Assembly (NCBI RefSeq): GCF_000407145.1
Contig: NZ_KE136473.1
Location: 62,001 to 126,000, forward strand
Source of the DNA: Enterococcus caccae ATCC BAA-1240
GTDB lineage: Bacteria > Bacillota > Bacilli > Lactobacillales > Enterococcaceae
Length of the DNA: 64,000 bases
Direction of reading: 5' to 3'
Shown here in pieces: positions 11,411 to 25,564 of the stretch; within the stretch, counting starts at the first letter, position 1; the number at the start of each line of letters is the position of its first letter. Both the position numbers and the translations under genes were made by a program. Below the pieces are notes generated by a model. It did not search any database, was not told the origin of the DNA, and was given only the letters and a program-made list of their open reading frames with translations.

Positions 11411-11752
11411 ATGATGCGAAGGGGAGAAATCTTTTATGCAAATCTCTCACCTGTTGTTGGTTCAGAGCAAGGAGGAATTAGACCAGTATTAATTATTCAA
11501 AATAATAAGGGGAATTTATTTAGTCCAACGTTGATTGTTGCACCTATCACTAGGAATGTGAATAAGAAAATGCAGCCAACTCAGGTTAAAGTGGATATAC
11601 CACATGATGACGGCATGACACCGTCATTGGTATTGTTAGAACAAATTCGAACGCTGGATAAAGAACGAATCCTTCACAAAATTTGTCAGTTGCAAGAAGA
11701 AGATATGATGAAAGTCAACCAAGCACTGAAAATAAGTATAGGGATCCGTTGA
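11411..11752 (+). CDS. MazF/PemK-family endoribonuclease toxin, orphan
   Basis: Toxin-like endoribonuclease of 113 aa in the MazF/PemK family. The family opening RGEIFYANLSPVVGSEQGGIRP and the VLLEQIRTLDK segment are intact, so the fold and the catalytic Arg and Thr region look functional. AGGGGTG lies eleven bases before the ATG (a second ATG follows directly). No antitoxin gene is found upstream or downstream: the 500 bases before are non-coding and a terminator follows. A close paralogue (34022-34402) follows alr in this window. Either the antitoxin is encoded elsewhere, the protein is weak, or it acts as a stand-alone RNase. Confidence 0.85.
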   Translation: MMRRGEIFYANLSPVVGSEQGGIRPVLIIQNNKGNLFSPTLIVAPITRNVNKKMQPTQVKVDIPHDDGMTPSLVLLEQIRTLDKERILHKICQLQEEDMMKVNQALKISIGIR

Positions 11753-12014: not shown

Positions 12015-12989
12015 ATGAAGAAAATTTACTACGGTATTTTAAGCACTGCTCAAATTGTTCCACGTTTTGTAGAGGGGATCAAAAAAAGTCGTGCAGGGCA
12101 AGTGGCGGCAATTGCATCAAGAAGTTTAGCAAAGGCGGAACAAATGGCGTCAGAGCTAGCTATACCGAAAGCGTATGGCAGTTATGAAGAATTATGTAAG
12201 GATGAGGAAATAGATATTATTTATGTTGCTACATATAATAAAGGCCACTATGAAGCTGCAAAAATGGCGTTGAAGCATCGCAAACATGTTTTAGTTGAAA
12301 AACCATTCACATTACAAGCTGCTCAAGCAAAAGAATTATTTGAATTAGCTGAAAAAAATAATTGTTTTTTGATGGAAGCGCAAAAGTCAGTTTTTTTACC
12401 TATTAGTTTACAAGTGAAAGAAGCAATCAAGAAAAATAAAATTGGGCAGGTTTATTGGGTACAAGCTGTGACAACTTATCCTAGCGTAGATCATATCAGT
12501 TGGTTTCACTCATTAGAAGCAGGTGGTGGGACCTTACACGGATCGGGAAGCTATCCGATCCAGTACATGCAGTTTTTATTGGACCAGCCTGTCGAAGAAT
12601 CCAGTGGTTGTGTGACTAGAAAAGCAGGTGCCACAGATGATCAAGTGAATTTGGCTTTGAAGTTTCAAAATCAAACGTTAGCCAATGTTTTTATTTCGGT
12701 GAAATTAGATATCCCTAGTAAAATGACAATCTATGGTGAAAAAGGTCGTATAGAAATTCCTTATTTTTGGAAAACCAAAGAGGCGACTATTTATTATGAA
12801 GATGGGTGTTGTGAACCATTAACAGGTGAATTTGAGAGTGAATTTATTTTTGAAGTCGAACATGTTAATGAGTGCTTGCAAAAACAGCTGCGAGAAAGCC
12901 CGGTGATGACAAAACAACTGACAATAGATACTGTCAGTTTAGTGGAACGACTATATGGAAAGTGGCTGGAAAAAGAGGAACAGGCATAA
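12015..12989 (+). CDS. Gfo/Idh/MocA family oxidoreductase
   Basis: NAD(P)-dependent oxidoreductase of 324 aa, typically acting on sugars, inositols or trans-dihydrodiols. The N-terminal Rossmann fold begins [16 protein letters not shown]. The signature VEKPF at about residue 95 carries the conserved Lys of the family, and the C-terminal half has the expected alpha/beta substrate domain. AAAGGAG precedes the ATG by nine bases. It lies just before the carbohydrate cluster but is separated from it by 650 bases including a terminator, so I treat it as separate. Substrate unknown. Confidence 0.88.
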
Positions 12990-13200
12990 AGATATTGCAA
13001 ACAAGACAGATCTATGATAAAGTAATCCTCATGCGACGAGTTGACTCAATCAGATAGCTTCGGCTGTTCCGTTTTGACGGCTAGTGATTGACAAAACAAC
13101 AGAGGCACATATGTTAAGTCATACCTACCGGATGTAGGCGTGTCGGATAAATATTTTTGTGGAGAAGATTTTATCTATTTATTTTTATAAATACTGTGGC

Positions 13201-13554: not shown

Positions 13555-13560
13555 AATAAA

Positions 13561-13589
13561 GTTGCACTTGTGTAAGTGCAACTTTTTTG
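13561..13589 (+). promoter_or_regulatory. GTTGCACTT inverted repeat at the +1 region: operator and/or 5' terminator
   Basis: GTTGCACTT GTGT AAGTGCAAC followed by T6. It can fold as a perfect 9-bp terminator hairpin, yet sits at the predicted transcription start rather than after a gene. The half site GTTGCACT recurs at 13440-13447 and GTTGCACTT at 18341-18349 upstream of the EIIC promoter. This makes it a candidate binding site for the cluster's regulator, or an early attenuator. Confidence 0.5.
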
Positions 13590-13641
13590 TGTTGTTATGC
13601 AATAAAAATCAAGCTATAGTTCAAATGTAAGGGAAAGAAAG

Positions 13642-15522
13642 TTGGTGAGTAGGATGTCGCTGCACTTATCAAAAAGGGAAATAAAAATTTTGTTGTTGCT
13701 TTTAGATTTAGAAGACAGTGTGACAACAAAAGAATTGGCTGAAACCTTTCATGTTAGTGTTCGGACGATCAAATACGACTTGGATAATGTTCGGGATTGG
13801 TTCAAAGAACAAAATGTCGTATTACAAACGCGTCGTAATAAAGGGATTTGGTTAGAGATACCTGATTCGGAACGATTAACGTTGAAAAATGAAATTATCG
13901 AAGTGGAGCGATTTGAAACATATCCTGATCAGGAGTTACGAGTAAATCAGCTGATTTTTCGTTTACTTTTAGCGGAGAAGCCATTAACATCGCAGGAACT
14001 AGCTGATGGTTTGCAAGTTAGTCGAAATACAATCGTCAGTGACCTAGATCGTGTGGAAGAATTGATTCAAGCGTATAGTCTTGCCTTGACTCGTCAAAGT
14101 CGTCAAGGATTTTCGATCACGGGAGAAGAAAGTAAGATTCGTTTGTTGATGGAATATATTACGCAAAAAGAAATAACCGAATATGATATGTATCAAATCA
14201 TGAGTTATTTTGTTCAATCGGGACAACAGAAAAAAATGCAAGAAGTACATGTGGGCGTCAATACGATTTTTCAAAAAATTTATCAAGTTGCTTTGAAAGA
14301 AATGACAAATCTTTTAGATCCATCATTATTTGATCAATTTAATTATGCTGAGATTTTGTCGATTACTTTACGTGTGGCAATTGCTACTTCTAGAATGCAA
14401 TTACATCATACTGTTGGTGGGTATAAAATGCTAGCAAATCAAAAAGTCCTTCAGCAAAAACAGGAATTGCCCTTTTTATTAATGAAAAAAGTATTTGATC
14501 ATTATGAGTTGCCACTTTTGGCAGATGAGTATCTTTACATTTATAGTGATGTATTTGTGGCAAATAATCAACAGGATATTGTTGGGTTGACAGAAGAATT
14601 AATTAAAGATGTATCGGAAGAAATCAACTTTCCTTTTTATCGAGATCGACAATTATTTACGAATTTATTTGCCCACTTGTCGTTACGTTTGACCAAAAAA
14701 CATCTTTTTATTAATGAGTATAATCCTTTTGTTGATGATATCAAAGCGAAATATCCACAATTATTTTCAGCAATCCAACTTGCCAGCCAGAGTGATATTG
14801 TAGGATCCGCTTTGTTGATCAATGATTCGTTTATTGCCTACATTGCGCTACACTTTCTAGTTGCTTACGAAAAAAATCTCCATGAAGTCAATGTAGTGCG
14901 AATTGTTTACGTTTGTTCAACTGGTTTGGGTGTAACAAGTTTGATTGAACAAAAAATTTTGGAAGAAGTGTCAAATGTTGAGATTGCAGGATTTGCATCG
15001 GTGTTGAATGCAGTGGATGTTATAGAAGAAAAAAATCCGGATTTGGTTTTAAGTATTTTTCCTATTGACATTGTTAATCGGCCATTTATTAAAGTAAATC
15101 CGTTGCCAACGACAGCTGATATTCACAGTATACAAGAAGAGGTCAACAAAATTTTGACTCATACTCATTCTGGAAAAGTACCTCGTTTGATTCCTCGTCA
15201 GCAAATCAAAGAAAAGCAAGGAATCGAGGCTGAAAGTCGGGATATAATCGTACGGACATATGTGATTTATGAAGAGTTACTCAAAGCCTTTGCAGGAAAA
15301 TTGACGCAAGAATATAGAGAAGCTTTTTTACTACATGTCATGTTGATGGTTCACCGAATCACGTTTGACAGTCAGTACGAGAATGAAGGCAATATTGTGA
15401 AAGAAACGTTATTAGCACAGCAAGTATTAGTCGAACAAATCGAACGAATTTTTGCTAAAAATGATTTAATGGTGAATCAAGCAGAAATCACTGCTTTATT
15501 GAATTATATAAGGGAGGAGTAG
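13642..15522 (+). CDS. PRD-containing transcriptional regulator (BglG/MtlR/LicR type) of the sugar cluster
   Basis: Phosphorylation-controlled regulator, 626 aa. Domains in order: HTH (residues about 10-60, VTTKELAETFHVSVRTIKYD), second HTH (about 105-160, LTSQELADGLQVSRNTIVSD), PRD1 (about 200-290), PRD2 (about 310-415, ending ALHFLVAYEKN), a GatB-like EIIB domain with phosphorylatable Cys in YVCSTGLGVTS (about 425), and a C-terminal helical PRD-like domain (about 530-620) with HVMLMVHRI. No EIIA domain is seen. DNA-binding HTHs indicate an MtlR/LicR-like activator, not an RNA antiterminator. TTG 13642 has AGGGAAAG upstream; GTG 13645 or ATG 13654 are alternatives. It heads the gene cluster and presumably senses its inducer through the PTS. 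Confidence 0.87.
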   Translation: MVSRMSLHLSKREIKILLLLLDLEDSVTTKELAETFHVSVRTIKYDLDNVRDWFKEQNVVLQTRRNKGIWLEIPDSERLTLKNEIIEVERFETYPDQELRVNQLIFRLLLAEKPLTSQELADGLQVSRNTIVSDLDRVEELIQAYSLALTRQSRQGFSITGEESKIRLLMEYITQKEITEYDMYQIMSYFVQSGQQKKMQEVHVGVNTIFQKIYQVALKEMTNLLDPSLFDQFNYAEILSITLRVAIATSRMQLHHTVGGYKMLANQKVLQQKQELPFLLMKKVFDHYELPLLADEYLYIYSDVFVANNQQDIVGLTEELIKDVSEEINFPFYRDRQLFTNLFAHLSLRLTKKHLFINEYNPFVDDIKAKYPQLFSAIQLASQSDIVGSALLINDSFIAYIALHFLVAYEKNLHEVNVVRIVYVCSTGLGVTSLIEQKILEEVSNVEIAGFASVLNAVDVIEEKNPDLVLSIFPIDIVNRPFIKVNPLPTTADIHSIQEEVNKILTHTHSGKVPRLIPRQQIKEKQGIEAESRDIIVRTYVIYEELLKAFAGKLTQEYREAFLLHVMLMVHRITFDSQYENEGNIVKETLLAQQVLVEQIERIFAKNDLMVNQAEITALLNYIREE

Positions 15523-15527
15523 CACGC

Positions 15528-15866
15528 ATGAAGTTAAATGACGATGCTCAAAAAATAATTGATGAGAGTCCTAATAAAGTTGCGTTAGAAGCATCATTAG
15601 AAAAGATTAGTGAATTACTAGTGGAGCAATCGATTCAACCAACGGAATTACAGTGGACGATTTTGATCAATCATGTTAATGAAATGATCAAACGCTCAAT
15701 TGCGGATGAAAAAATGTCAGGTGTTGATCCAGTGATGTTTGAAGAAGTTTCTGAAGAAGCTTTAACGATCGCTGACAAAGTTGTTCAGTATATTGGAAAT
15801 CTGCCGCAAGATGAAATGTATGTTTTGTCGATTCATTTTGAGGCAGCAAGACAAAACGAATTGTAA
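15528..15866 (+). CDS. Stand-alone PRD domain protein
   Basis: A 112-aa protein that consists of little more than one PRD (PTS regulation domain). The two histidines expected to be phosphorylated are visible in LINHVNEMIKR and LSIHFEAARQN. It starts five bases after the regulator stop behind AGGGAGGAG, so it is translationally close to the regulator. With no DNA-binding part, it may act as a phosphorylation-dependent partner or decoy for the regulator; that is inference. I recall that E. faecalis has the same gene at the same place (EF0829). Confidence 0.8.
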   Translation: MKLNDDAQKIIDESPNKVALEASLEKISELLVEQSIQPTELQWTILINHVNEMIKRSIADEKMSGVDPVMFEEVSEEALTIADKVVQYIGNLPQDEMYVLSIHFEAARQNEL

Positions 15867-15923
15867 AAAAAAGTTGAAGTGAATCATTATCAGCTTTTAA
15901 ATAAAAAATTGGAGGAATTATAC

Positions 15924-16277
15924 ATGATAACAGTAGTAATCGCAGATCGTTTAGGTAAAGGTCAAAATGTTGCAAAAGGAGTAGAGGCTGCAGGAGGTAA
16001 AGCTGTTGTTGTTCCTGGAATGGGTGCAGATATGCGTTTAGGAGATGTAATGCAACAGGAAAATGCCGATTTAGGGATTTCATTTTGCGGAAGCGGTGGT
16101 GCAGGAGCCTTAACAGCTGCTACAAAATATGGTTACCCAGAGCGCCATGGTATGCGTTCGATCGATGAAGGTGTAACAGCTATCAATGATGGTAAAACGG
16201 TTTTAGGTTTTGGATTTATGGATCAAGAGGAATTAGGGAAGCGAATCGTTGAAGCATATATGAAAAAGAACGGTTAA
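15924..16277 (+). CDS. Glycine-rich SFCGS family protein (EF_0830 type)
   Basis: Small cytoplasmic protein of 117 aa carrying the motif SFCGSGGAGALTAATKYGYP, from which its family takes its name (TIGR03577, EF_0830; related to DUF2620/YhfU). The N-terminal half (MITVVIADRLGKGQNVAKGV) looks like a small alpha/beta fold, reminiscent of a PTS EIIB, and Cys 59 or so in the Gly-rich loop would be the obvious functional residue; that analogy is mine. ATG 15924 follows TTGGAGGAA; the frame open upstream from 15879 has no ribosome binding site. It always travels with DUF4310-4312 genes. Function has not been established to my knowledge. Confidence 0.85.
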   Translation: MITVVIADRLGKGQNVAKGVEAAGGKAVVVPGMGADMRLGDVMQQENADLGISFCGSGGAGALTAATKYGYPERHGMRSIDEGVTAINDGKTVLGFGFMDQEELGKRIVEAYMKKNG

Positions 16278-16299
16278 AAAGTGAAACTATCAAGTTTCA

Positions 16300-16447
16300 T
16301 GAACTAGCCACTACGTTCAGCTTCGATCAAATCAATTCCTACAAGCTAACGCCTAAGGATTGAAGGTTCGGAAAAAGGATAAAAATAGAATGAGACAAAA
16401 AAAGTAACTCAATCACTTTCTCCTATTTTCCAGTCAACGCTGACCGA
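16300..16447 (+). repeat. Dispersed intergenic repeat, family 2, inside the sugar operon
   Basis: Words CAAGCTAACG, GGTTCGGAAAAAGGATAAAA, CACTTTCTCCTATTTTCC and GCTGACCGAACCC in the order seen in the other copies. It separates the SFCGS gene from the DUF4312 gene. It could form a processing site or attenuator within the operon. Confidence 0.5.
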
Positions 16448-16484
16448 ACCCATTATGTGTTTAAATTACGGGGAGGAAAATCTT

Positions 16485-16859
16485 ATGGAAAAAGTAACGA
16501 CGAAACAACGCCAGATTATTCAAGTCGAAGGTACTGGGAAAGAAAAAAATCAGGCGTTTGCGAATGCATTGAATCAAATCCATAATCGTGTATTGAAGGG
16601 AAAAAATGATGTGATTGTGCGGATTGAACCGCTTGATATCCAGATTATCAAAGCAGAACAAGAATCATTCACAGAACGCTTTTTATTTTTCTTCTTGCCT
16701 CGCACACGTGTAGACTATCGTGTGTTATTAGATGTTGAAGTGGAGATTACATTGATTGAAGTGGAATCAATCAAATTTGTGGAAAAAAGAGTTACCGATC
16801 CAAACGGTCTTCCTATCCCTTTTGGAAAGAAAAAAAGAATACAGAAGGAGGCAAATTAA
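16485..16859 (+). CDS. DUF4312 family protein (EF_0831 type)
   Basis: Cytoplasmic protein of 124 aa belonging to DUF4312 by cluster position and length (TIGR03578). It shows an alternating strand/helix pattern and an internal hydrophobic FLFFFLP stretch in the middle, but no transmembrane segment. ATG 16485 follows GGGGAGGAAAA; the frame open from 16455 has no signal. Its stop abuts the next start, indicating translational coupling with DUF4311. No function is known; constant linkage to DUF4311/DUF4310 suggests a cytoplasmic component of that membrane system. Confidence 0.8.
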   Translation: MEKVTTKQRQIIQVEGTGKEKNQAFANALNQIHNRVLKGKNDVIVRIEPLDIQIIKAEQESFTERFLFFFLPRTRVDYRVLLDVEVEITLIEVESIKFVEKRVTDPNGLPIPFGKKKRIQKEAN

Positions 16860-17642
16860 ATGGATGTTTTAGTGGTTTTACTCAAGTCTTTATTGATTGG
16901 GGGATTAGTAGGATTTGCAGCAGGAGCAGGGGCAGCAAGGATGTTCCATGCGCCAAGCACCCAAGGTTTAGGTGCTTTTAGAACATTAGGTGAAATGAAT
17001 GCATGTGAAGGGGATGCGGCCAGTCATTTTTCATTTGGATTAGGTTTTTTCTTTAATGCGTGGGCTTCAACAGTTGGAGCAGGAGCATTTACACAAGATG
17101 TGGATCACCGTGTCATTCCTAACTGGGCTGCGGCGGCTTTACTAGTGAAAAATAAAAATGTCGCTGAAACAATGCATAACCCTAAGAAAATGGGAATCTC
17201 TGGTGCGATTGTAGGAATGTTAGTTGTAGCTTTCTTGAATACAACTGCTTCAGCGATTCCAGAATCACTTCAAGTGACAGCGGTTGCCGTTTTAGTACCA
17301 GCAGCAAATTTGCTGATTAATACAGTAATGCCTGTTTTATTCTGGTTAGCAGCGATCGATGCTGGTAAACGCTCAGGTCTTTGGGCAACGATCTTCGGAG
17401 GTCTTGCAACAATGATTATGGGCAATGCAGTTCCAGGAGTAGTACTAGGTATTTTGATTGGTAAAGGTGTGGATGAAATCGGTTGGAATAAGGTGACGAA
17501 AAGTATGATGGCAGCAGTTATTTTATTATTTGTCTTTAGTGCCTTTTTCCGTGGATTTGATCTACAAATGATCGAAAGTTTCCGTTTGCAGATCCCAGGT
17601 TGGTTGCAAAATATGCATGACGTTTTTAGTGTAGGGAAATAG
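16860..17642 (+). CDS. DUF4311 membrane protein (EF_0832 type)
   Basis: Polytopic membrane protein of 260 aa with about six to seven hydrophobic segments, rich in Gly/Ala (GGLVGFAAGAGAARMF, GNAVPGVVLGILIGKG). Position and composition identify it as DUF4311 (TIGR03580). The start directly follows the DUF4312 stop, with GAAGGAGG inside the preceding gene. With DUF4310 it forms a two-protein membrane module; conserved acidic and His residues in EMNACEGDAASHF, between helices 1 and 2, are candidates for substrate contact. Transport function is inferred from topology and neighbours. Confidence 0.83.
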   Translation: MDVLVVLLKSLLIGGLVGFAAGAGAARMFHAPSTQGLGAFRTLGEMNACEGDAASHFSFGLGFFFNAWASTVGAGAFTQDVDHRVIPNWAAAALLVKNKNVAETMHNPKKMGISGAIVGMLVVAFLNTTASAIPESLQVTAVAVLVPAANLLINTVMPVLFWLAAIDAGKRSGLWATIFGGLATMIMGNAVPGVVLGILIGKGVDEIGWNKVTKSMMAAVILLFVFSAFFRGFDLQMIESFRLQIPGWLQNMHDVFSVGK

Positions 17643-17666
17643 TGAAAGGGAAAGTGAGGAACAGTG

Positions 17667-18329
17667 ATGGATGAAATAGTAGAATTAGAAAAAAAGAATT
17701 TTTGGTTTGCTGATTGGTCATTCCCGATCTTAGTTGGATTATTATCAGCTGGTGTATTTGCTGGAACGCATATGTATTTTGAACATGGTGTTGGAGCTTT
17801 CAATGAAGTGGCGATTGTTGCGATGCTCAAAGCTGGAATGGACGGTGGTTCATATGGTGCGGCAGCAGCATTTGGTGCGAGTTTCTTATTTGCACGAATT
17901 TTGGAAGGTTCGCTTGTGGGGATTTTAGATATTGGTGGTGCGATTTTAACGGGTGTTGGAATTGGAGTTCCTGCTATTCTATTAAGTATGGGGATTACAG
18001 CGCCAGTTGAAAACTTTGGACTGTCTTTATTAACTGGAATGATCCTCGGTCTGATCATTGGTGGAATTATTATTATGATCCGTAAGTTTACGATCAATCA
18101 GTCGAATTCTACTTTTGGGGCAGATGTTATGATGGGAGCAGGGAATGCTTCTGGTCGTTTCTTAGGACCTCTGATCATTATTAGTGCATGTGGAGCCTCT
18201 GCCCCAATCGGTATTGGTTCAATTATCGGTGCTGTGATTTTCTATGTCTGGAAAAAACCTATCGCTGGTGGCGCTATTTTAGGCGCAATGATCTTTGGTG
18301 CAATATTCCCGGTTGATTTACCTAGTTAA
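17667..18329 (+). CDS. DUF4310 membrane protein (EF_0833 type)
   Basis: Polytopic membrane protein of 220 aa (TIGR03579/DUF4310 by context). Five to six hydrophobic segments are visible, with Gly-rich re-entrant-like stretches (AGMDGGSYGAAAAFGASF, GADVMMGAGNASGRFLGP). AGTGAGG lies seven bases before ATG 17667; GTG 17664 is an alternative. It closes the first half of the cluster. An internal promoter and a 120-base gap follow before the EIIC gene. It is presumed to pair with DUF4311 in the membrane. Confidence 0.83.
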   Translation: MDEIVELEKKNFWFADWSFPILVGLLSAGVFAGTHMYFEHGVGAFNEVAIVAMLKAGMDGGSYGAAAAFGASFLFARILEGSLVGILDIGGAILTGVGIGVPAILLSMGITAPVENFGLSLLTGMILGLIIGGIIIMIRKFTINQSNSTFGADVMMGAGNASGRFLGPLIIISACGASAPIGIGSIIGAVIFYVWKKPIAGGAILGAMIFGAIFPVDLPS

Positions 18330-18340
18330 GATCGATTAAA

Positions 18341-18393
18341 GTTGCACTTTTCTTTTGAAAACCGTTTACATTATAATGTTACCATGTTATTAT
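18341..18393 (+). promoter_or_regulatory. Internal promoter with GTTGCACTT site and weak cre-like sequence
   Basis: GTTGCACTT at 18341-18349 repeats the half site of the inverted repeat at 13561-13582. It is followed by TTTACA (18365-18370), a 17-base spacer and TATTAT (18388-18393), a good sigma-A promoter. GAAAACCGTTTACA overlapping the -35 resembles a CcpA site (cre) with two mismatches to the core consensus. It suggests separate activation and catabolite control of the downstream half of the cluster. Confidence 0.5.
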
Positions 18394-18452
18394 GAATGAG
18401 AAATAATTTGATTTTTTATTCATAATACTATTTTGAACGGGGGACAAAAGAA

Positions 18453-19772
18453 ATGAATGGTTTTGTGCAGTGGATGGAAGTAAAATTGATGCCGGTTGCG
18501 AATAAATTTGGTTCGCAGCGGCATATGACAGCGATCAGAAAAGGACTTATCGCAACGATGCCTTTAACGATCGTGGGTGCCTTTTTTACAGTATTTCAGA
18601 ATATTCCAATTGATGCGTATATGAAATTTATTGAACCGTATCAAGCAGTTTTGGATATTCCGTCACGTTATACAATGGGGATCTTAGCTCTTTATGCAAC
18701 ATTTGGGATTGCTTCTTCTTTAGCAACGAGTTACAAGTTGGATTCCTTAACGTGCGGGATTTTAGCAGTGATGGCCTTTTTAGTCACAGCAGCACCTCCA
18801 ACACGTGTTTTTGAAGACGTGAAAGATGTTATTGGTGCAGGGCGTTATATTAATTTAGCCAATATCGGTTCTGCTTCATTGTTTGGCGCGATCGTTACAG
18901 CGCTTGTTTCGGTAGAAATTTATCGTTTCTTTATTCAAAAGGACATTACGATAAAAATGCCTGATGGTGTTCCACCAGAAGTGTCTAACTCATTTATTGC
19001 GTTGATTCCTGGAGCGGTGATTTTATTACTATTTTGGGTGATTCGTCACGTTATCGGTTTTGATTTAAATGGATTTTTAAGTACATTACTAATGCCTTTG
19101 AAAGATACCTTAGCTGGGAATAGCTTATTTGGTGGATTACTTACAGTCTTCTTGATTTGTTTCTTCTGGGTTTTAGGAATTCACGGACCAGCAATCATGG
19201 GACCTGTGATCAGACCGTTTTGGGATATGTCGATTGCTGAGAATACACTTGCTTTCCAAGAAGGTGCCTCTGTTCATAATTTACCGAATATTTTCACTGA
19301 ACAATTTTTACAATGGTTTATTTGGATCGGTGGAGCCGGTACTACTTTAGCTTTAGTCGTTTTAATGATGTTTTCTAAATCAACATACTTGAAAAGTTTA
19401 GGACGTTTGTCCTTCTTGCCAGGATTATTCAATATTAATGAACCTGTGATTTTTGGTACACCGATCGTGATGAATCCGATTTTGGGAATTCCATTTATCG
19501 TGGCACCACTGATCACAACAACATTTTCATATTTTCTAACAGTGACCAATGTGATTCCAATGATGGCAGCGCGTTTACCATTTGCAATACCTGCGCCGAT
19601 TGCTGCTTGGATGAGTACAAACTGGAGCGTTCCAGCAGCACTGCTTGTCTGTGTCAATTTCGCGATTACTTTGGCGATTTACTACCCGTTCTTCAAAGTA
19701 TATGAAAAACAACAATTAGACAAAGAAGCAGAAGAGTTGGCAGCAGAACAAAAAGCAAAAGCAGCTGCTTAA
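18453..19772 (+). CDS. PTS EIIC, lactose/cellobiose family, without its own EIIA/EIIB
   Basis: Sugar permease of the Lac/Cel family (CelB/LicC-like), 439 aa, with some eight to ten membrane segments. GIHGPAIMGPVIRP (around residue 245) and NEPVIFGTPIVMNP (around 330) are the family's substrate-site signatures. Length is typical. Remarkably, no EIIA or EIIB gene of this family lies in the cluster, so phosphoryl transfer must come from elsewhere, from the small SFCGS/PRD proteins, or not occur at all. Its own promoter lies at 18365-18393. The family imports disaccharides such as cellobiose, lactose or chitobiose as phospho-sugars. Confidence 0.88.
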   Translation: MNGFVQWMEVKLMPVANKFGSQRHMTAIRKGLIATMPLTIVGAFFTVFQNIPIDAYMKFIEPYQAVLDIPSRYTMGILALYATFGIASSLATSYKLDSLTCGILAVMAFLVTAAPPTRVFEDVKDVIGAGRYINLANIGSASLFGAIVTALVSVEIYRFFIQKDITIKMPDGVPPEVSNSFIALIPGAVILLLFWVIRHVIGFDLNGFLSTLLMPLKDTLAGNSLFGGLLTVFLICFFWVLGIHGPAIMGPVIRPFWDMSIAENTLAFQEGASVHNLPNIFTEQFLQWFIWIGGAGTTLALVVLMMFSKSTYLKSLGRLSFLPGLFNINEPVIFGTPIVMNPILGIPFIVAPLITTTFSYFLTVTNVIPMMAARLPFAIPAPIAAWMSTNWSVPAALLVCVNFAITLAIYYPFFKVYEKQQLDKEAEELAAEQKAKAAA

Positions 19773-19811
19773 TTGAGATAGAGAGGGAGGGGAGTAGCTT
19801 TACTGCCCTCT

Positions 19812-20078
19812 TTGGTGATGAAGGTTATGATAATTTGGTTCATCGTATTTTTTATTTTTAGTCAAGTAATGATTGAAAGAAAATGGCTGCCTGAAAAATT
19901 TATGGATTTAAGGCTACTGCATCTATGTGTTGCTTCAATTGGTTTGATTTTCTTAGCGATTGTGGTAGGAATTTTAGTCAAGCAACCAATAGTTGTAGTA
20001 GGAACCGTCACTATTTTTTGTAGTTCAGTCCTTTCTTGGAAATATCGTAATAAATTCGACCATATAAAGCGAGGGTAA
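19812..20078 (+). CDS. Small membrane protein of the sugar cluster
   Basis: Unrecognised 88-aa protein with three hydrophobic helices (MIIWFIVFFIFSQVMI, LCVASIGLIFLAIVVGILV, IVVVGTVTIFCSSVL) and a short basic tail. It lies 40 bases after EIIC and 5 bases before the DUF871 gene. The start is unclear: TTG 19812, GTG 19815 or ATG 19818; GGGAGGGGAG sits 16-22 bases upstream, longer than usual. Probably an accessory of the permease. No known family comes to mind. Confidence 0.6.
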   Translation: MVMKVMIIWFIVFFIFSQVMIERKWLPEKFMDLRLLHLCVASIGLIFLAIVVGILVKQPIVVVGTVTIFCSSVLSWKYRNKFDHIKRG

Positions 20079-20083
20079 AAGAA

Positions 20084-21172
20084 ATGAAAAGAGCATTAGG
20101 TGTATCTGTTTATCCAGATCATAGTGATATAGAAAAAGATAAAGCTTATTTAAAAAAAGCCAGTGAATGTGGATTTTCACGGATCTTTATGAGCATGCTA
20201 GAAGTAACCGAAGGCAAAGAAGTCGTAAAGGAAAAATTTAAATCATTGATTTCTTATGCAAAGGGCTTAGGTTATGAAACGATTTTAGATGTGGCACCAA
20301 ACATTTTTGATGAGTTACAAATTTCATATGATGATTTAACATTCTTTTATGAAACTGGAGCAGACGGTATCCGTTTAGATGCAGGCTTTGACGGAAACAA
20401 AGAAGCGAAGCTAACATTTAATCCATTCGAGTTAGCCATTGAATTAAATATGAGTAACGATGTAGCATATCTGGATAATATTTTAACTTATGAAGCAAAT
20501 GTTCCGTTTCTTTATGGGTGTCACAATTTTTATCCGCAAGAAGGGACTGCTTTGCCTTACGATTTCTTTGAGCGGTGTAGTGTGCGTTTTAAAAAACATG
20601 GAATTCGGACAGCAGCATTTATCAATTCACAAGCGGGTAAAATCGGTCCTTGGGATGTTAATGATGGCTTACCAACACTTGAAATGCACCGCCATTTACC
20701 AGTAGATGTCCAAACAAAACATCTATTTGCAACGGGTTTGATCGATGATGTGATTATTGGCAATGCCTATGCATCTGATGAAGAGTTAGAATTGTTAGGC
20801 AGTTTAAATCGCTATCAATTAGAATTAGCAGTTGAATTTACTGAACAGGCAAGCGAGCTTGAAAAAGAAATCGTGTTGACGGAACAACACTTCCGCCGCG
20901 GAGATATCACTGATCAAGTAGTTCGTTCAACCGAAGTTCGTAAAAAATACAAAAATGATGCCAATCCTGCTCATGACAATACACAAGAATTTCAAGTCGG
21001 AGATGTTGTGATCGGCAACGATGCATTTGGGAAATACAAAAATGAGCTGCAAATTGTTTTACAGCCGCATTCAGACGACCGTAAAAACAAGGTAGGTCAA
21101 ATAACAGAGAAAGAATTGTTGTTGTTGGATTTTGTAAAACCCTGGACAAAATTTAGATTTAAAGAAAAGTAG
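20084..21172 (+). CDS. DUF871/MupG-like glycoside hydrolase
   Basis: Protein of 362 aa in the DUF871 family, whose characterised member MupG of Staphylococcus aureus is a cytosolic 6-phospho-N-acetylmuramidase. The N-terminal TIM barrel (residues 1-240) starts ALGVSVYPDHSD and contains GADGIRLDAGFDG and the HNFYPQEGTAL motif; a C-terminal beta domain (about 245-362) follows, FQVGDVVIGNDAFGKY. AGCGAGG is upstream. In this operon it would cleave a phosphorylated disaccharide delivered by the PTS. Whether the substrate contains MurNAc-6-P or another 6-phospho sugar cannot be told; no MurQ etherase is present, which argues for a different sugar. Confidence 0.82.
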   Translation: MKRALGVSVYPDHSDIEKDKAYLKKASECGFSRIFMSMLEVTEGKEVVKEKFKSLISYAKGLGYETILDVAPNIFDELQISYDDLTFFYETGADGIRLDAGFDGNKEAKLTFNPFELAIELNMSNDVAYLDNILTYEANVPFLYGCHNFYPQEGTALPYDFFERCSVRFKKHGIRTAAFINSQAGKIGPWDVNDGLPTLEMHRHLPVDVQTKHLFATGLIDDVIIGNAYASDEELELLGSLNRYQLELAVEFTEQASELEKEIVLTEQHFRRGDITDQVVRSTEVRKKYKNDANPAHDNTQEFQVGDVVIGNDAFGKYKNELQIVLQPHSDDRKNKVGQITEKELLLLDFVKPWTKFRFKEK

Positions 21173-21180
21173 GGGATAAA

Positions 21181-22290
21181 ATGAGTTACGACTTAATTAT
21201 AAAAAATGGGAGAACAATTGAAGGTAAACCGATAGAAATAGCAATAAATGCTGGGAAAATCGCAAAAGTTGCGGATAAAATCGAAGCAGATGGGAAAGAA
21301 TTGATCGAACTATCAGCTGATACCTATCTATCAGCTGGTTGGATCGATGATCATGTTCACTGTTTTGAAAAGATGACTTTGTATTATGATTTTCCAGATG
21401 AAATTGGTGTGAAAAAAGGCGTAACAACAGTAATCGATGCAGGTACAACAGGCGCTGAAAATATCCATGAATTTTATGACCTAGCCAAACAAGCAAAAAC
21501 TAATGTTTATGCGTTAGTGAATATTTCGAAATGGGGCATTGTTGAGCAAGATGAATTGGCAGATCTTAGTAAGGTAAAAGAAGAGCTCGTTCATAAGGTG
21601 TTGACTGAATTGCCTGATTTTGTTGTAGGGATCAAGGCGCGTATGAGTAAAACAGTGATCGGTGACAATGGGATCACTCCTTTAGAGATGGCGAAGAAGA
21701 TTCAAAAGGAAAACAATGACCTGCCGCTTATGGTGCATATTGGATCAGCTCCTCCAGAGCTAAACGAGATACTAGCTCATATGACAAAAGGGGATGTGTT
21801 GACCCATTGCTTTAATGGAAAACCCAATGGTATTTTAGATCAGTCAACAAATAAAGTTAAAGATTTTGCTTGGGCTGCCTATAATAAAGGTGTTGTATTT
21901 GATATTGGTCATGGGACGGATAGTTTTAATTTCCATGTTGCTGAAACAGCTTTAGCAGAAGGTATGGAAGCAACTTCGATCAGTACAGATATTTACATCC
22001 GTAATCGTGAAAAAGGTCCAGTTCATGATTTAGCCACTACGATGGAAAAATTACGTGTGGTTGGCTATGAGTGGCCTGAAATTATTGAAAAAGTGACCGC
22101 AGCACCTGCTGAAAACTTCCGTTTTGAGACAAAAGGTCATTTAAAAGAAGGCTATGACGGAGATATCACAATTTTTACGATTGAAGCTGGCCAAAAGACA
22201 TTGACTGATTCAAACGGATTTACCAGAGAAGCAAAAGAATTGATCAAACCTGTAAAAACCATTATTGGAGGAACAGTTTATGACAATTAG
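21181..22290 (+). CDS. Amidohydrolase/deacetylase family metallohydrolase
   Basis: Metal-dependent amidohydrolase-superfamily enzyme of 369 aa. Visible metal ligands: the HxH-like DDHVHCF at about residue 58, the bridging Lys in GIKARMSK (~156), His in LMVHIGSAPPE (~184), His in LTHCFNGKP (~203) and the catalytic Asp in SISTDIYIRN (~265). Such proteins next to DgaE-type lyases are annotated as deacetylases. I infer it removes an N-acetyl group from an amino sugar (acid) before the lyase acts. ATG 21181 follows AGGGGATAA; the 3' end overlaps the next gene by eleven bases, giving translational coupling. Confidence 0.85.
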   Translation: MSYDLIIKNGRTIEGKPIEIAINAGKIAKVADKIEADGKELIELSADTYLSAGWIDDHVHCFEKMTLYYDFPDEIGVKKGVTTVIDAGTTGAENIHEFYDLAKQAKTNVYALVNISKWGIVEQDELADLSKVKEELVHKVLTELPDFVVGIKARMSKTVIGDNGITPLEMAKKIQKENNDLPLMVHIGSAPPELNEILAHMTKGDVLTHCFNGKPNGILDQSTNKVKDFAWAAYNKGVVFDIGHGTDSFNFHVAETALAEGMEATSISTDIYIRNREKGPVHDLATTMEKLRVVGYEWPEIIEKVTAAPAENFRFETKGHLKEGYDGDITIFTIEAGQKTLTDSNGFTREAKELIKPVKTIIGGTVYDN

Positions 22291-23374
22291 TTATGAAAAA
22301 TTCAATCTAAAAGAAGTCATCAATGCCTCAGGGAAAATGACGATCTTAGGCGTATCGAAAGTCTCAGAGAATGTCTTAGCCGCGCAAAAATTCGGTGGGG
22401 AACATTTCTTTGAGATGAGTGAGTTAAGCATTCAAACAGGCGCTTACCTAGCTAAATTATTGACTGTCGAAGATGCTCAAGTCGTTTCTTCCGCATCCGC
22501 TGGTATCGCCCAAAGTGTGGCAGCCTTGATCGGTGAAGGTTCAGTGTATCACGCCTATCATCCATACACAGATAAAATCACCAAACGTGAAATTATCTTA
22601 CCTAAAGGGCATAACGTAGATTACGGCACGCCCGTTGAAGTAATGGTCGAACAAGGTGGGGGACAAGTTGTGGAAGCAGGCTATGCCAATATGTGTTCAC
22701 CTGAACATATTGAAACGATGATTACCGATCAAACCGCAGCGATTCTCTACATTAAGAGCCATCACACTGTTCAAAAAAGTATGTTAAGTGTGGAAGAAGC
22801 CGCGACAGTTGCGAAGGCTCATAAGTTACCATTGATCGTTGATGCCGCAGCGGAAGAAGATCTATTCAAATACATCGAAGCAGGCGCAGATCTAGTGATC
22901 TACAGTGGGGCCAAAGCTATCGAAGGACCAAGTGCAGGACTTGTGATCGGCAAAAAAGCCTATATCGAATGGATCCGCCTACAAGGAAAAGGCATCGGCC
23001 GCGCAATGAAAATCGGTAAAGATAATATCTTAGGTTTTACCCAAGCGGTAGAAGATTATGTGAAAAACGGCAGTGAAGCAGGGGATTCCATGCAAGCACG
23101 CTTAGCACCATTTATCGCAGCATTAAATCAAATAAACAATATTGAAGCCAAAAGCGTTCAAGATGGCGCTGGCAGAGATATTTACAGAGCGAGTATCAAG
23201 GTCAGTGGAGAAAAGTCAGCGAAAGCAGTCATCCAAGAATTAAAAGCTGAAAGTCCCGCTATTTATACCCGAGAATACCAAGCCAACAACGGAATCATCG
23301 AATTCGATATCCGTTCTGTCAATGAAGAAGAAATGACTAAAATCGTGACTCGTTTAACCGAGATCATGAATTAA
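22280..23374 (+). CDS. DgaE-family PLP-dependent ammonia lyase
   Basis: Fold-type-I PLP enzyme of 364 aa related to SelA, like Salmonella DgaE (2-amino-2-deoxy-D-gluconate-6-phosphate ammonia lyase), which makes 2-keto-3-deoxygluconate-6-phosphate. The PLP lysine is in IYSGAKAIEGPSAG (about residue 213), preceded by the cofactor Asp in LIVDAAAEED. TTGGAGG lies nine bases before ATG 22280, inside the upstream gene. From here through the aldolase the codons end in C noticeably more often (ATC, GCC, GGC) than in neighbouring genes. Substrate assignment follows from the family and the next gene. Confidence 0.85.
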   Translation: MTISYEKFNLKEVINASGKMTILGVSKVSENVLAAQKFGGEHFFEMSELSIQTGAYLAKLLTVEDAQVVSSASAGIAQSVAALIGEGSVYHAYHPYTDKITKREIILPKGHNVDYGTPVEVMVEQGGGQVVEAGYANMCSPEHIETMITDQTAAILYIKSHHTVQKSMLSVEEAATVAKAHKLPLIVDAAAEEDLFKYIEAGADLVIYSGAKAIEGPSAGLVIGKKAYIEWIRLQGKGIGRAMKIGKDNILGFTQAVEDYVKNGSEAGDSMQARLAPFIAALNQINNIEAKSVQDGAGRDIYRASIKVSGEKSAKAVIQELKAESPAIYTREYQANNGIIEFDIRSVNEEEMTKIVTRLTEIMN

Positions 23375-23402
23375 AAAACTACTAAACAGGAGTGAATCAA
23401 CC

Positions 23403-24146
23403 ATGACATTAACACCAAACTATTTAGAAGACCGTATTTGCCTAAACGTTTTAGCCAACTCAGTAGAAAACGCAAAAGACTGTTACGAAGCTGCCGAAGG
23501 GCATATCGTTTTAGGGGTTCTTTCAAAAAATTATCCAACCGATGAAGCCGCAATCGAAGACATGAAAAAATACGCCGCAGAAACCAATAACGCGTTATCA
23601 GTTGGCTTAGGTGCAGGCGATCCAAACCAAAGCCAAATGGTGTCAAGAATCTCAAAAGAACTACAACCACAACACGTCAACCAAGTCTTTACAGGCGTTG
23701 GGACATCTCGTGCTTTATTAGGTCAAAATGACACGATCGTTAATGGCTTAGTCTCACCAACAGGCAAAGTCGGTATCGTCAATATCGCCACAGGTCCCTT
23801 AAGTTCCCAAACACCAGCAGGTGAAGTGACGATCGAAACAGCGATTCGTTTATTACAAGATATGGGCGGTAGCTCTATCAAATTCTTCCCTATGAAAGGA
23901 TTAGCGCATATCGAAGAATACAAAGCAGTCGCAGAGGCCTGTGCCAAATATGATTTCTACCTAGAACCAACAGGAGGCATCGATTTAGAAAACTTTGAAG
24001 AAATCGTGCAAATCGCAGTGGACGCAGGCGTGAAAAAGATCATCCCTCACGTATACAGCTCAATCATCGACTCAGAAACAGGCGATACAAGACCAGAAGA
24101 TGTGAAAACATTACTAGGTATGATTAAAAATACGTTGAACAACTAA
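23403..24146 (+). CDS. KDGP aldolase family protein (DgaF-like)
   Basis: Class-I aldolase of 247 aa (TIGR03581/EF_0839 group, DgaF-like). It splits 2-keto-3-deoxy-6-phosphogluconate into pyruvate and glyceraldehyde-3-phosphate. The likely Schiff-base Lys is in GGSSIKFFPMKGL (around residue 157), and the phosphate-binding EPTGGIDLENF follows. The start follows ACAGGAG. The gene ends exactly where a 121-bp tandem repeat begins. It is the step that delivers the cluster's carbon to glycolysis. Confidence 0.87.
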   Translation: MTLTPNYLEDRICLNVLANSVENAKDCYEAAEGHIVLGVLSKNYPTDEAAIEDMKKYAAETNNALSVGLGAGDPNQSQMVSRISKELQPQHVNQVFTGVGTSRALLGQNDTIVNGLVSPTGKVGIVNIATGPLSSQTPAGEVTIETAIRLLQDMGGSSIKFFPMKGLAHIEEYKAVAEACAKYDFYLEPTGGIDLENFEEIVQIAVDAGVKKIIPHVYSSIIDSETGDTRPEDVKTLLGMIKNTLNN

Positions 24147-24475
24147 AAGCAGAATGAGCTCGATTAGGGCTGACAGAAAAATAGGGAAAGTTGACTGTGG
24201 TGTATTGTGCCACGGCTCACTTTCATCTTTTTTCCGAAGCACTAGCTCATGAAGCTAGATAAACTAAAAGCTGAATGAGCTCGTTCAGGGCTGACAGAAA
24301 AATAGGGAAAGTTGATTGTGGCGTATTGTGCCACGGCTCACTTTCATCTTTTTTCCGAAGCACTAGCTCATGAAGCTAGATAAGCTAAAAGCAGAATGAG
24401 CTCGTTCAGGGCTGACATAAAAATAGGAAAAACTTGACTGTGTTGTACCACAGTCAAGTTTTATCATCTTTCTGA
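24141..24475 (+). repeat. 121-bp tandem duplication of a family-2 element
   Basis: Two nearly identical 121-bp units (24141-24261 and 24262-24382, only a few differences) and a third, diverged partial unit to about 24475. Each unit contains AGCTAAAAG-like and GAATGAGCTCG words, CTGACAGAAAAATAGGGAAAG, a palindrome around TGTGGTGTATTGTGCCACGG, CTTTCATCTTTTTTCCGAAG and CATGAAGCTAG. The first unit overlaps the aldolase stop codon. The reverse complement matches the copy at 27600-27735. Confidence 0.85.
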
Positions 24476-24553
24476 AATCCTTCAATCCTTTGAGCTTTAG
24501 CTCTTAGAAATTGTTGAGATTGAAGCAAAGCTAGGAAATAGGAAGGGGTCGAC

Positions 24554-25564
24554 ATGAGAATTGCAGCGTTTGGTGAAATAATGATGCGTTTTACGCCACC
24601 AGAATATCTAATGTTGGAGCAAACCAAAGATTTACGTTTAGATTTTACAGGTACGGGAGTCAATATTTTAAGTAACCTTGCTCATTTTGGTTGTCAAACA
24701 AGTTTATTGACAAATCTTCCTGATAATCGATTAGGCGAGGCTGCCAAAGCAACTATTCGTCAATTGGGCATTCAGGATCGTTGGATCGGTACTTTGGGTG
24801 ATCACATTGGGTCATATTTTGCTGAAATGGGATTTGGAGCTAGACCTACGCAAGTAACCTATCAAAATCGCCGTAATAGTTCATTTGGTATGAGTGGTAC
24901 GGCTGATTATGATTTCGATACTTTTTTAGCTGAAATCGATTTAGTTCATATTTGTGGAATCTCACTAAGTTTGACCAAAGAAACACGTGAGGCTGCATTT
25001 ACTTTAGCTGAGAAGGCTCATACTTTAGGGAAAAAAGTTTGCTTTGATTTTAATTTTCGCCCTAGCTTGAATGAAGTTCATGGGACCTCCTTCATGAAAG
25101 AACAATATGAAAAGATGCTACCTTATTGCGATTTAGTTTTTGGTAGTCAGCGAGATTTAACAGATCTATTAGAAATGACGATGGACGAAGCGATAGAACC
25201 TTCTAAGCAGTTTGAAGAATTAGTTCATCGCTTTATGACAATCTATCAAATTGATTGCTTTGCTGGAACCATTCGTCAAGGCGAAGGCGACAAACGCTAT
25301 TTAACGGGCTATATCTTTGATTCAGAACACTATGTACAAGCAGCGCCTAGAGAAATTATTCATTTGGATCGAATCGGAGCAGGTGATGGCTATGCAGCTG
25401 GTATTTTACTTGGATACAGCGAATCATGGTCATTGCTAGAAAGTGTAGAGTTCGCTACAGCAAATGGTGTTTTAGCGCATACAATCCAAGGGGATGTGCC
25501 GTTAACAACACGTAAACAAGTCAGACATATCATGGAACATCCTACAGTGGATTTGATCCGCTAA
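24554..25564 (+). CDS. 2-keto-3-deoxygluconate kinase-type sugar kinase (PfkB family)
   Basis: PfkB-family carbohydrate kinase, 336 aa, most like 2-keto-3-deoxygluconate kinases (KdgK). It opens IAAFGEIMMRFTPP with the substrate-binding TGTGVNILSNLAHFG (Gly-rich motif). The C-terminal DRIGAGDGYAAGILLG holds the catalytic Asp and anion hole. ATG 24554 follows AGGAAGGGG. It is separated from the aldolase by the tandem repeats but lies on the same strand and fits the pathway: it would phosphorylate KDG to the aldolase substrate when sugar enters unphosphorylated. A terminator follows at 25565-25626. Confidence 0.87.
   Translation: MRIAAFGEIMMRFTPPEYLMLEQTKDLRLDFTGTGVNILSNLAHFGCQTSLLTNLPDNRLGEAAKATIRQLGIQDRWIGTLGDHIGSYFAEMGFGARPTQVTYQNRRNSSFGMSGTADYDFDTFLAEIDLVHICGISLSLTKETREAAFTLAEKAHTLGKKVCFDFNFRPSLNEVHGTSFMKEQYEKMLPYCDLVFGSQRDLTDLLEMTMDEAIEPSKQFEELVHRFMTIYQIDCFAGTIRQGEGDKRYLTGYIFDSEHYVQAAPREIIHLDRIGAGDGYAAGILLGYSESWSLLESVEFATANGVLAHTIQGDVPLTTRKQVRHIMEHPTVDLIR

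Follow-up and report, generated by a model that had tools for sequence, protein, structure and literature searches.

Does the run of thirteen genes at positions 13642 to 25564 of this stretch of Enterococcus caccae ATCC BAA-1240 serve a single import-and-degradation route, or have separate systems been brought together? The stretch, called the window below, comprises 64,000 nucleotides of contig NZ_KE136473.1 in a host genome of 3.55 Mb. An initial annotation, made from the sequence alone, had described thirteen co-directional genes, named their families, and proposed import of a single glycoside by the cluster as a whole. The list of open reading frames and our family scans of the window placed all 13 genes on the + strand and returned the same family names at curated cut-offs, except that the small membrane protein matches no family and the last gene is only PfkB/KDG-kinase-like (KDG, 2-keto-3-deoxygluconate). 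The single glycoside fared differently, as the cluster is best read as a fusion of two operons that share one amidohydrolase-DgaE-DgaF set. We call these module A (a free-standing PRD protein, SFCGS, DUF4312, DUF4311, and DUF4310) and operon B (an Enzyme IIC [EIIC], a small membrane protein, MupG, and a KDG kinase). The explanation we favor, with a probability of about 0.45, is that two catabolic operons have fused and that module A is an importer of N-acyl amino-sugar acids which is linked to the phosphotransferase system (PTS) and delivers its substrates 6-phosphorylated.

Two separable operons joined in the window

To compare loci, we used a DUF4311 alignment scan of genome contigs, which confirmed 490 relatives; the nearest named ones are from E. 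ureilyticus (99% identical) and from E. crotali, E. moraviensis, and E. plantarum (98%). Locus counts rest on the best 80 of the 490, and some of these 80 contigs are cut, affecting the per-gene counts. We considered 66 of the 80 loci usable, dropping 14 in which DUF4311 lay less than 4 kb from the upstream end or was followed by less than 9 kb. Across the 80 loci, the core order is PRD regulator, PRD protein, SFCGS, DUF4312, DUF4311, DUF4310, amidohydrolase, DgaE, and DgaF, with DUF4310 present in 80, SFCGS in 78, DgaE in 75, and the amidohydrolase in 74. The four genes from SFCGS to DUF4310 are contiguous in 63 of the 66 usable loci, and this contiguity, together with the 490 relatives, means that the arrangement is not due to chance. 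The block is nevertheless rare, as DUF4310 scored above its cut-off in only 7 of the 398 genomes of a phylum sample. In loci L007 and L009 (genome G253), DUF4310 is split into two adjoining partial matches that lie in different frames; a frameshift or a sequencing error may be the cause.

The fusion reading follows from the fact that module A occurs without operon B, operon B occurs without module A, and the two halves are joined elsewhere in another order. MupG is absent from 52 of the 66 usable loci with the block; among all 80 block-carrying loci it is found in 16, and EIIC accompanies it in 15 of these (a further EIIC, in L051, lies away from the module). Stand-alone B operons, consisting of EIIC, small membrane protein, MupG, amidohydrolase, DgaE, DgaF, and KdgK with no SFCGS block, were found at L115 and in E. 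malodoratus (L179), E. gallinarum (L180; no call for the small membrane protein), and a strain with the deposited name E. faecalis 13-SD-W-01 (L181). All four genomes carry module A elsewhere: the first has it alone on another contig (L003), and the others have it at L037, L025, and L028. At L019, L027, and L028, module A stands without the pathway enzymes. In three Lactococcus loci (L045, L052, and L085), A and B are joined in an order that differs from that of the window; the PRD, SFCGS, and DUF4312 genes were not called in L045. In E. ureilyticus (L011), the EIIC is gone, and what remains of the small membrane protein is a fragment (11551 to 11667) lying between DUF4310 and MupG.

These arrangements bear on the possibility that the DUF block assists the EIIC in importing one N-acylated glycoside on which all thirteen genes act. 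The contiguity and shared direction of the genes in the window, and the joining of A and B in Lactococcus, would fit such a system. However, the many usable block loci that lack MupG, the four B operons that lack the block, and the three modules A that lack enzymes all speak against it, and we regard it as very improbable. Import of one glycoside by all the genes together is not supported, given the same separability and the scarcity of MupG, the only glycosidase, among the block loci. The amidohydrolase follows neither half exclusively: it is present in 47 of the 52 usable loci without MupG and in all 14 with it. It is missing from three mannose-PTS dgaEF operons (L159, L160, and L182), as expected if those operons import the free amine.

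The kinase pattern and the DgaE/DgaF pathway

The KDG kinase goes with MupG, being present in 12 of the 14 usable loci with MupG versus 0 of the 52 without it. Kinase calls in these counts required at least 30% identity, a floor that excluded the labels in L047 and L078 (identity of 22%, some 8 kb away from DUF4311). All four stand-alone B operons carry the kinase, and it is absent from four modules A in distant genomes (L111 to L114) and from the three mannose-PTS operons. Genome-wide, 12 of 18 module A genomes had no kinase match at an E value of ≤1e-20; of the other six, three have a close orthologue (57 to 62%), in each case within a B operon apart from module A, and the rest have only a 27 to 29% relative. 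As the loci are mutually related, we attach no probability to this pattern. Because DgaF needs 2-keto-3-deoxy-6-phosphogluconate (KDPG), loci without a kinase should obtain the phosphate earlier in the route. A mannose PTS phosphorylates its substrate at import, and the simplest reading of the missing kinase is that module A does likewise; module A thus probably also delivers a phosphorylated substrate.

Under the favored explanation, module A would be self-contained: it would import N-acetyl-D-glucosaminate or a closely related N-acylated 2-amino-hexonic acid and, drawing on the PTS, deliver it 6-phosphorylated. The amidohydrolase would strip off the acyl group, DgaE would eliminate ammonia to yield KDPG, and DgaF would split KDPG into pyruvate and glyceraldehyde 3-phosphate, with no kinase needed along this route. 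Operon B, through its cellobiose-type EIIC, small membrane protein, and MupG, would import a disaccharide, phosphorylate the nonreducing sugar, and cut the product. The amino-sugar acid would then be released unphosphorylated, which would be why operon B carries a KDG kinase. As the initial annotation proposed, these enzyme families suit a route in which an N-acyl amino-sugar acid is deacylated, deaminated, and cleaved by an aldolase.

The closest known counterpart is the Salmonella dga operon, which pairs a mannose-family PTS (DgaABCD) with DgaE and DgaF. The likeness lies in the two enzymes (DgaE matches PDB entry 7lc0 at an E value of 7e-84), in the lack of need for a kinase, and, when the second dgaEF copy of the window genome is included, in a PTS-linked PRD regulator. 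In an alignment to 7lc0, the window DgaE keeps the His pair of the Salmonella enzyme (His162-His163), as do 76 of 76 relatives; the lyase and the role of this pair are described in PMC9529869. The window cluster differs in having a transporter with no sequence relationship to the mannose-family one, along with an added amidohydrolase, MupG, a kinase, and a second transporter. Operon B resembles the MurP/MupG/MurQ/MurR pathway of Staphylococcus aureus, where a PTS EIIC is paired with a DUF871 protein (MupG) that cuts a phosphorylated disaccharide (PMC6262408). Unlike that pathway, the window cluster has an EIIC of the lactose/cellobiose family and no MurQ, and the nearest match of its DUF871 protein, a putative glycosidase, is 1x7f. 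Other specificities within the MupG family are expected by PMC6262408.

A second dgaEF pair is found in the window genome; on contig C5, it follows genes for a sigma-54/PRD activator and for mannose-family IIA, IIB, IIC, and IID. Its DgaE and DgaF are 98% and 100% identical to the window copies, and the DNA is 97.7% identical over 2,160 bp (window 22288 to 24447 against L159 9560 to 11718), which suggests recent copying or gene conversion. A comparable case is found in E. faecalis, for which an expression screen gives EF0839 and EF2975 as strictly identical (PMC2912369) and a strain survey reports dgaE duplicated in 100% and dgaF in 97.5% of the strains analyzed (PMC7396535). The six closest Enterococcus genomes searched (G408 to G413) had one DgaF each at an E value of ≤1e-40. 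In E. malodoratus, module A, operon B, and a mannose-PTS dgaEF operon are all present, with A and B apart.

We also read 12 amidohydrolase loci without the module (L099 to L110), drawn from an overly broad family search that matched 343 of 398 genomes. The four above the family cut-off (L099 to L102) all have DgaE, DgaF, and the kinase; among the eight weaker relatives (L103 to L110), only L104 has the kinase, and only L103 and L107 have DgaE. In L099, the amidohydrolase-DgaE-DgaF-KdgK set lies near an ABC transporter. In L101, it lies directly beside EIIBC (MurP-like), MurQ-like, and RpiR-like (MurR-like) genes and a MupG relative, a neighborhood with a possible link to peptidoglycan sugars. 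No transporter was identified at L100 or L102.

Relatives of SFCGS and the PRD protein and the proposed link to the PTS

Two of the module A proteins have counterparts in the yhf operon of E. coli. A hidden Markov model (HMM) built from seven YhfU proteins found 71 of 71 labeled SFCGS proteins at E values of <1 (best, 1.3e-6) among 1,806 locus proteins, with one other protein, an EIIC, in that range. In the reverse direction, among yhf-neighborhood proteins, the first six matches of the SFCGS HMM were YhfU, and E. coli YhfU itself came eighth (E value of 0.096), behind one unrelated protein. SFCGS weakly matches the Pfam family DUF2620 (YhfU) at 15.0, short of the gathering score of 25, and DUF2620 was found in 0 of 10 module genomes. 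The PRD protein and YhfY profiles find each other, and the YhfY model also matches PRD regulators and others. Profile-profile comparison with hhalign gave 92% (E value of 5e-7) for SFCGS-YhfU and 94% (E value of 1.4e-7) for PRD-YhfY. By these profile comparisons, SFCGS and the PRD protein are homologues of YhfU and YhfY.

The genes for YhfY, YhfU, and YhfT are consecutive in all six other yhf loci that we read, and a PRD protein, SFCGS/YhfU, and one or more membrane proteins thus recur as a unit beside differing enzymes. The E. coli operon (yhfZYXW-php-yhfUTS) resembles the window in that an amidohydrolase-superfamily protein and a pyridoxal phosphate (PLP) enzyme adjoin this unit. It differs in having no DUF4312, DgaF, or EF_0837-type enzyme, and YhfT shows no detectable relation to DUF4310 or DUF4311 (hhalign, <1%; no HMM support). 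A homology between DUF4310 and DUF4311 themselves was considered and rejected on equivalent results (hhalign, <1%; no HMM support), and we make no claim from a likeness of the N termini noticed by eye.

SFCGS also likely has a distant RpiB-like fold, judging from weak profile matches, and it might be an RpiB/LacAB-like isomerase or epimerase acting on the imported sugar or sugar phosphate, with DUF4310 and DUF4311 importing alone. Of the 11 PDB matches of a joint SFCGS and YhfU profile, five were RpiB chains, including the first four (E values of 0.0054, 0.0069, 0.12, and 0.14), and RpiB or LacB made up 8 of the 10 weak matches of a five-sequence SFCGS profile. Cys55 of SFCGS is invariant (74 of 74) and aligns with the catalytic Cys of RpiB, in an overall similarity that is weak. 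On the other hand, a 34-sequence SFCGS profile found no RpiB match, and hhalign gave 3% for RpiB versus SFCGS and 14% for YhfU versus RpiB. The LacAB_rpiB family matches 13 of 34 SFCGS members (best E value, 0.0024), but so does the unrelated Cecropin family (13 of 34), making the match unspecific. SFCGS stays below every RpiB/LacAB family cut-off (12.1 bits for the window protein against the LacAB_rpiB gathering score of 24.7), and in place of the His of the RpiB DHxG motif it has Arg9 (74 of 74). It also recurs with PRD and membrane proteins beside the quite different enzymes of yhf operons, unlike a pathway isomerase, and we consider the isomerase role improbable. A LacAB/RpiB match is present in 43 of the 46 genomes searched for it, and none was found in the window genome.

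Several features speak for a link between module A and the PTS. His49, Arg56, and His103 of the free-standing PRD protein are present in 70 of 70 aligned sequences; by our reading of the alignment, the first His is kept in all seven YhfY proteins and the second in five. The PRD protein is kept in six usable loci (five of Companilactobacillus and L084) in which we found no PRD regulator, and in L057 and L089 it was recovered by tblastn after being missed in open reading frame calling. In L019 (7030 to 9240), it is fused in frame to the C terminus of the PRD regulator. Enzyme I (EI) was found in all 19 genomes tested, 13 with module A and 6 with YhfT, which is a risk of refutation passed rather than proof. 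HPr-EI pairs adjoin the module in 2 of 107 neighborhoods, L114 (EI by Pfam, HPr by motif) and L036 (both by motif).

One specific form of this link would be a new class of phosphoenolpyruvate-dependent permease that works by group translocation, has no kinship with the known PTS permeases, and is made up of the PRD protein, SFCGS/YhfU, and either DUF4312/4311/4310 or YhfT. Phosphate would pass from EI/HPr to a His of the PRD protein, then to the Cys of the RpiB-like SFCGS, and finally to the amino-sugar acid bound by DUF4310/4311; yhfY-yhfU-yhfT of E. coli K-12 would be a second branch with another substrate. This model is speculative, and we think it unlikely in this full form.

A number of observations weigh against PTS-linked delivery of a phosphorylated substrate. 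None of 74 DUF4310/4311 proteins matches any PTS family, including IIC and IID, at an E value of ≤1, and no sequence relationship to IIC or IID was found. SFCGS matches no EIIB family (34 members scanned), and neither a His nor a Cys is invariant in DUF4312. EI was found in 34 of 109 genomes of the phylum sample (some module genomes included), and the families concerned are PTS rich, with kinship uncorrected; the two HPr-EI neighbors could be due to chance. An unrelated kinase elsewhere could supply the phosphate. The kinase pattern has exceptions among the 80 loci, as L014 (cut contig), L020, and L038 have MupG and no kinase, and L061 (cut upstream) has the kinase without MupG; moreover, these 80 are the closest of the 490 DUF4311 relatives. 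Finally, DgaE scores below the NCBI equivalog NF047797 for the true D-glucosaminate-6-phosphate lyase (354.4 versus 600 bits); it does pass the cut-off of the wider DgaE family, and DgaF passes its own equivalog cut-off.

An alternative is an ion-coupled importer formed by DUF4310/4311, in which SFCGS, DUF4312, and the PRD protein would have regulatory or assembly roles. The PRD protein would then only let the PTS gate transport, and the phosphate would come from an unlinked, unrelated kinase or be on the substrate already. The PTS usually acts on PRD domains for regulation, and the membrane proteins, besides matching no PTS family, include DUF4311, for which 29 of 38 proteins weakly match DUF2232 over a short stretch (best E value, 1.9e-4). 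DUF2232 is a membrane family that we take to be grouped with the S-components of energy-coupling factor transporters. Against such an importer, the kinase pattern parallels that of the mannose-PTS operons, and where the PRD protein relocates, it moves with the module rather than the regulator. We judge the ion-coupled importer to be unlikely, and PTS-linked import by module A remains the explanation that we favor.

Features of the window cluster and their significance

The features of the cluster are collected in Table 1.

Table 1. Genes and other features of the window cluster, with family scores in bits (score/cut-off where two values are given).
Feature	Position	Strand	Unit	Basis
PRD/Mga-type regulator	13642..15522	+		HTH_11, Mga, and PRD domains; EIIB-like Cys motif by our reading of the sequence
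Free-standing PRD protein (EF_0829), YhfY homologue by profile	15528..15866	+	Module A	127.6/69.35
SFCGS (EF_0830), YhfU homologue by profile, weakly RpiB-like	15879..16277	+	Module A	TIGR03577, 220.8/141.1
DUF4312 (EF_0831), predicted soluble	16455..16859	+	Module A	TIGR03578, 114.5/89.65
DUF4311 membrane protein (EF_0832)	16860..17642	+	Module A	TIGR03580, 493.5/301.1
DUF4310 membrane protein (EF_0833)	17664..18329	+	Module A	TIGR03579, 385.4/215.45
Lactose/cellobiose-family PTS EIIC	18453..19772	+	Operon B	TIGR00410, 398/236
Small membrane protein, 88 amino acids	19812..20078	+	Operon B	Matches no family
MupG/DUF871 glycosidase family	20084..21172	+	Operon B	Pfam MupG_N, 321.2; MupG_C, 132.8
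EF_0837-type amidohydrolase, putative deacylase	21181..22290	+	Common to A and B	562/432.15
DgaE-family PLP ammonia-lyase	22265..23374	+	Common to A and B	TIGR01437, 571.4/385.3
DgaF KDPG aldolase	23403..24146	+	Common to A and B	NF047796 equivalog, 396.1/300
121-bp tandem repeat with hairpin, separating dgaF from the kinase gene	24141..24462			Repeat, 24141-24442, 2.5 copies; hairpin, 24429-24462
PfkB/KDG-kinase-like protein	24554..25564	+	Operon B	Family-like; under every curated cut-off

Relatives of SFCGS begin at the ATG at 15924. The kinase gene starts 407 bp downstream of dgaF, beyond the tandem repeat and hairpin, and because of this gap it may be transcribed apart from dgaF. Further copies of the 121-bp repeat follow the C5 dgaF (L159 11413 to 12019), and inverted copies lie upstream of that operon (L159 6667 to 6829). 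Upstream of the first gene there is a hairpin at 13558 to 13585, and an Rfam Ref68 match (Enterococcus sRNA 68; score of 88 bits, with a gathering score of 44) lies just upstream of the cluster at 13032 to 13167. A Gfo/Idh-type oxidoreductase gene lies farther upstream on the same strand (12015 to 12989), and its protein cluster is found in 12 of the 80 loci. No site matching the strict consensus of the catabolite-responsive element occurs in the window (1.3 expected), and promoter-like sites are uninformative there (52 versus 48.1 in shuffles).

The locus has been catalogued, as NCBIfam lists EF_0829, EF_0830, EF_0831, EF_0832, EF_0833, EF_0837, and EF_0839 as hypothetical equivalogs. The initial annotation had stated that the SFCGS/DUF block has no assigned function, and full-text literature searches (SFCGS and DUF4310 to DUF4312, the EF locus tags, the yhf genes, and DUF2620) agree, finding no functional study of the module in print. 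The related literature includes a transposon study with EF0838 and EF0839 (PMC7701990), a biofilm proteome (PMC11135667), and a comparison of urinary isolates (PMC10746210).

Taken together, the loci show one two-enzyme pathway, DgaE/DgaF, fed by at least three interchangeable transport systems. The kinase pattern makes the catalogued hypothetical locus directly testable, through import and phosphorylation of N-acyl hexosaminates by module A. If our explanation is true, PTS permeases would gain an architecture beyond their known families, and the orphan yhf operon of E. coli K-12 would come to share a testable role with a group of families so far listed as hypothetical.

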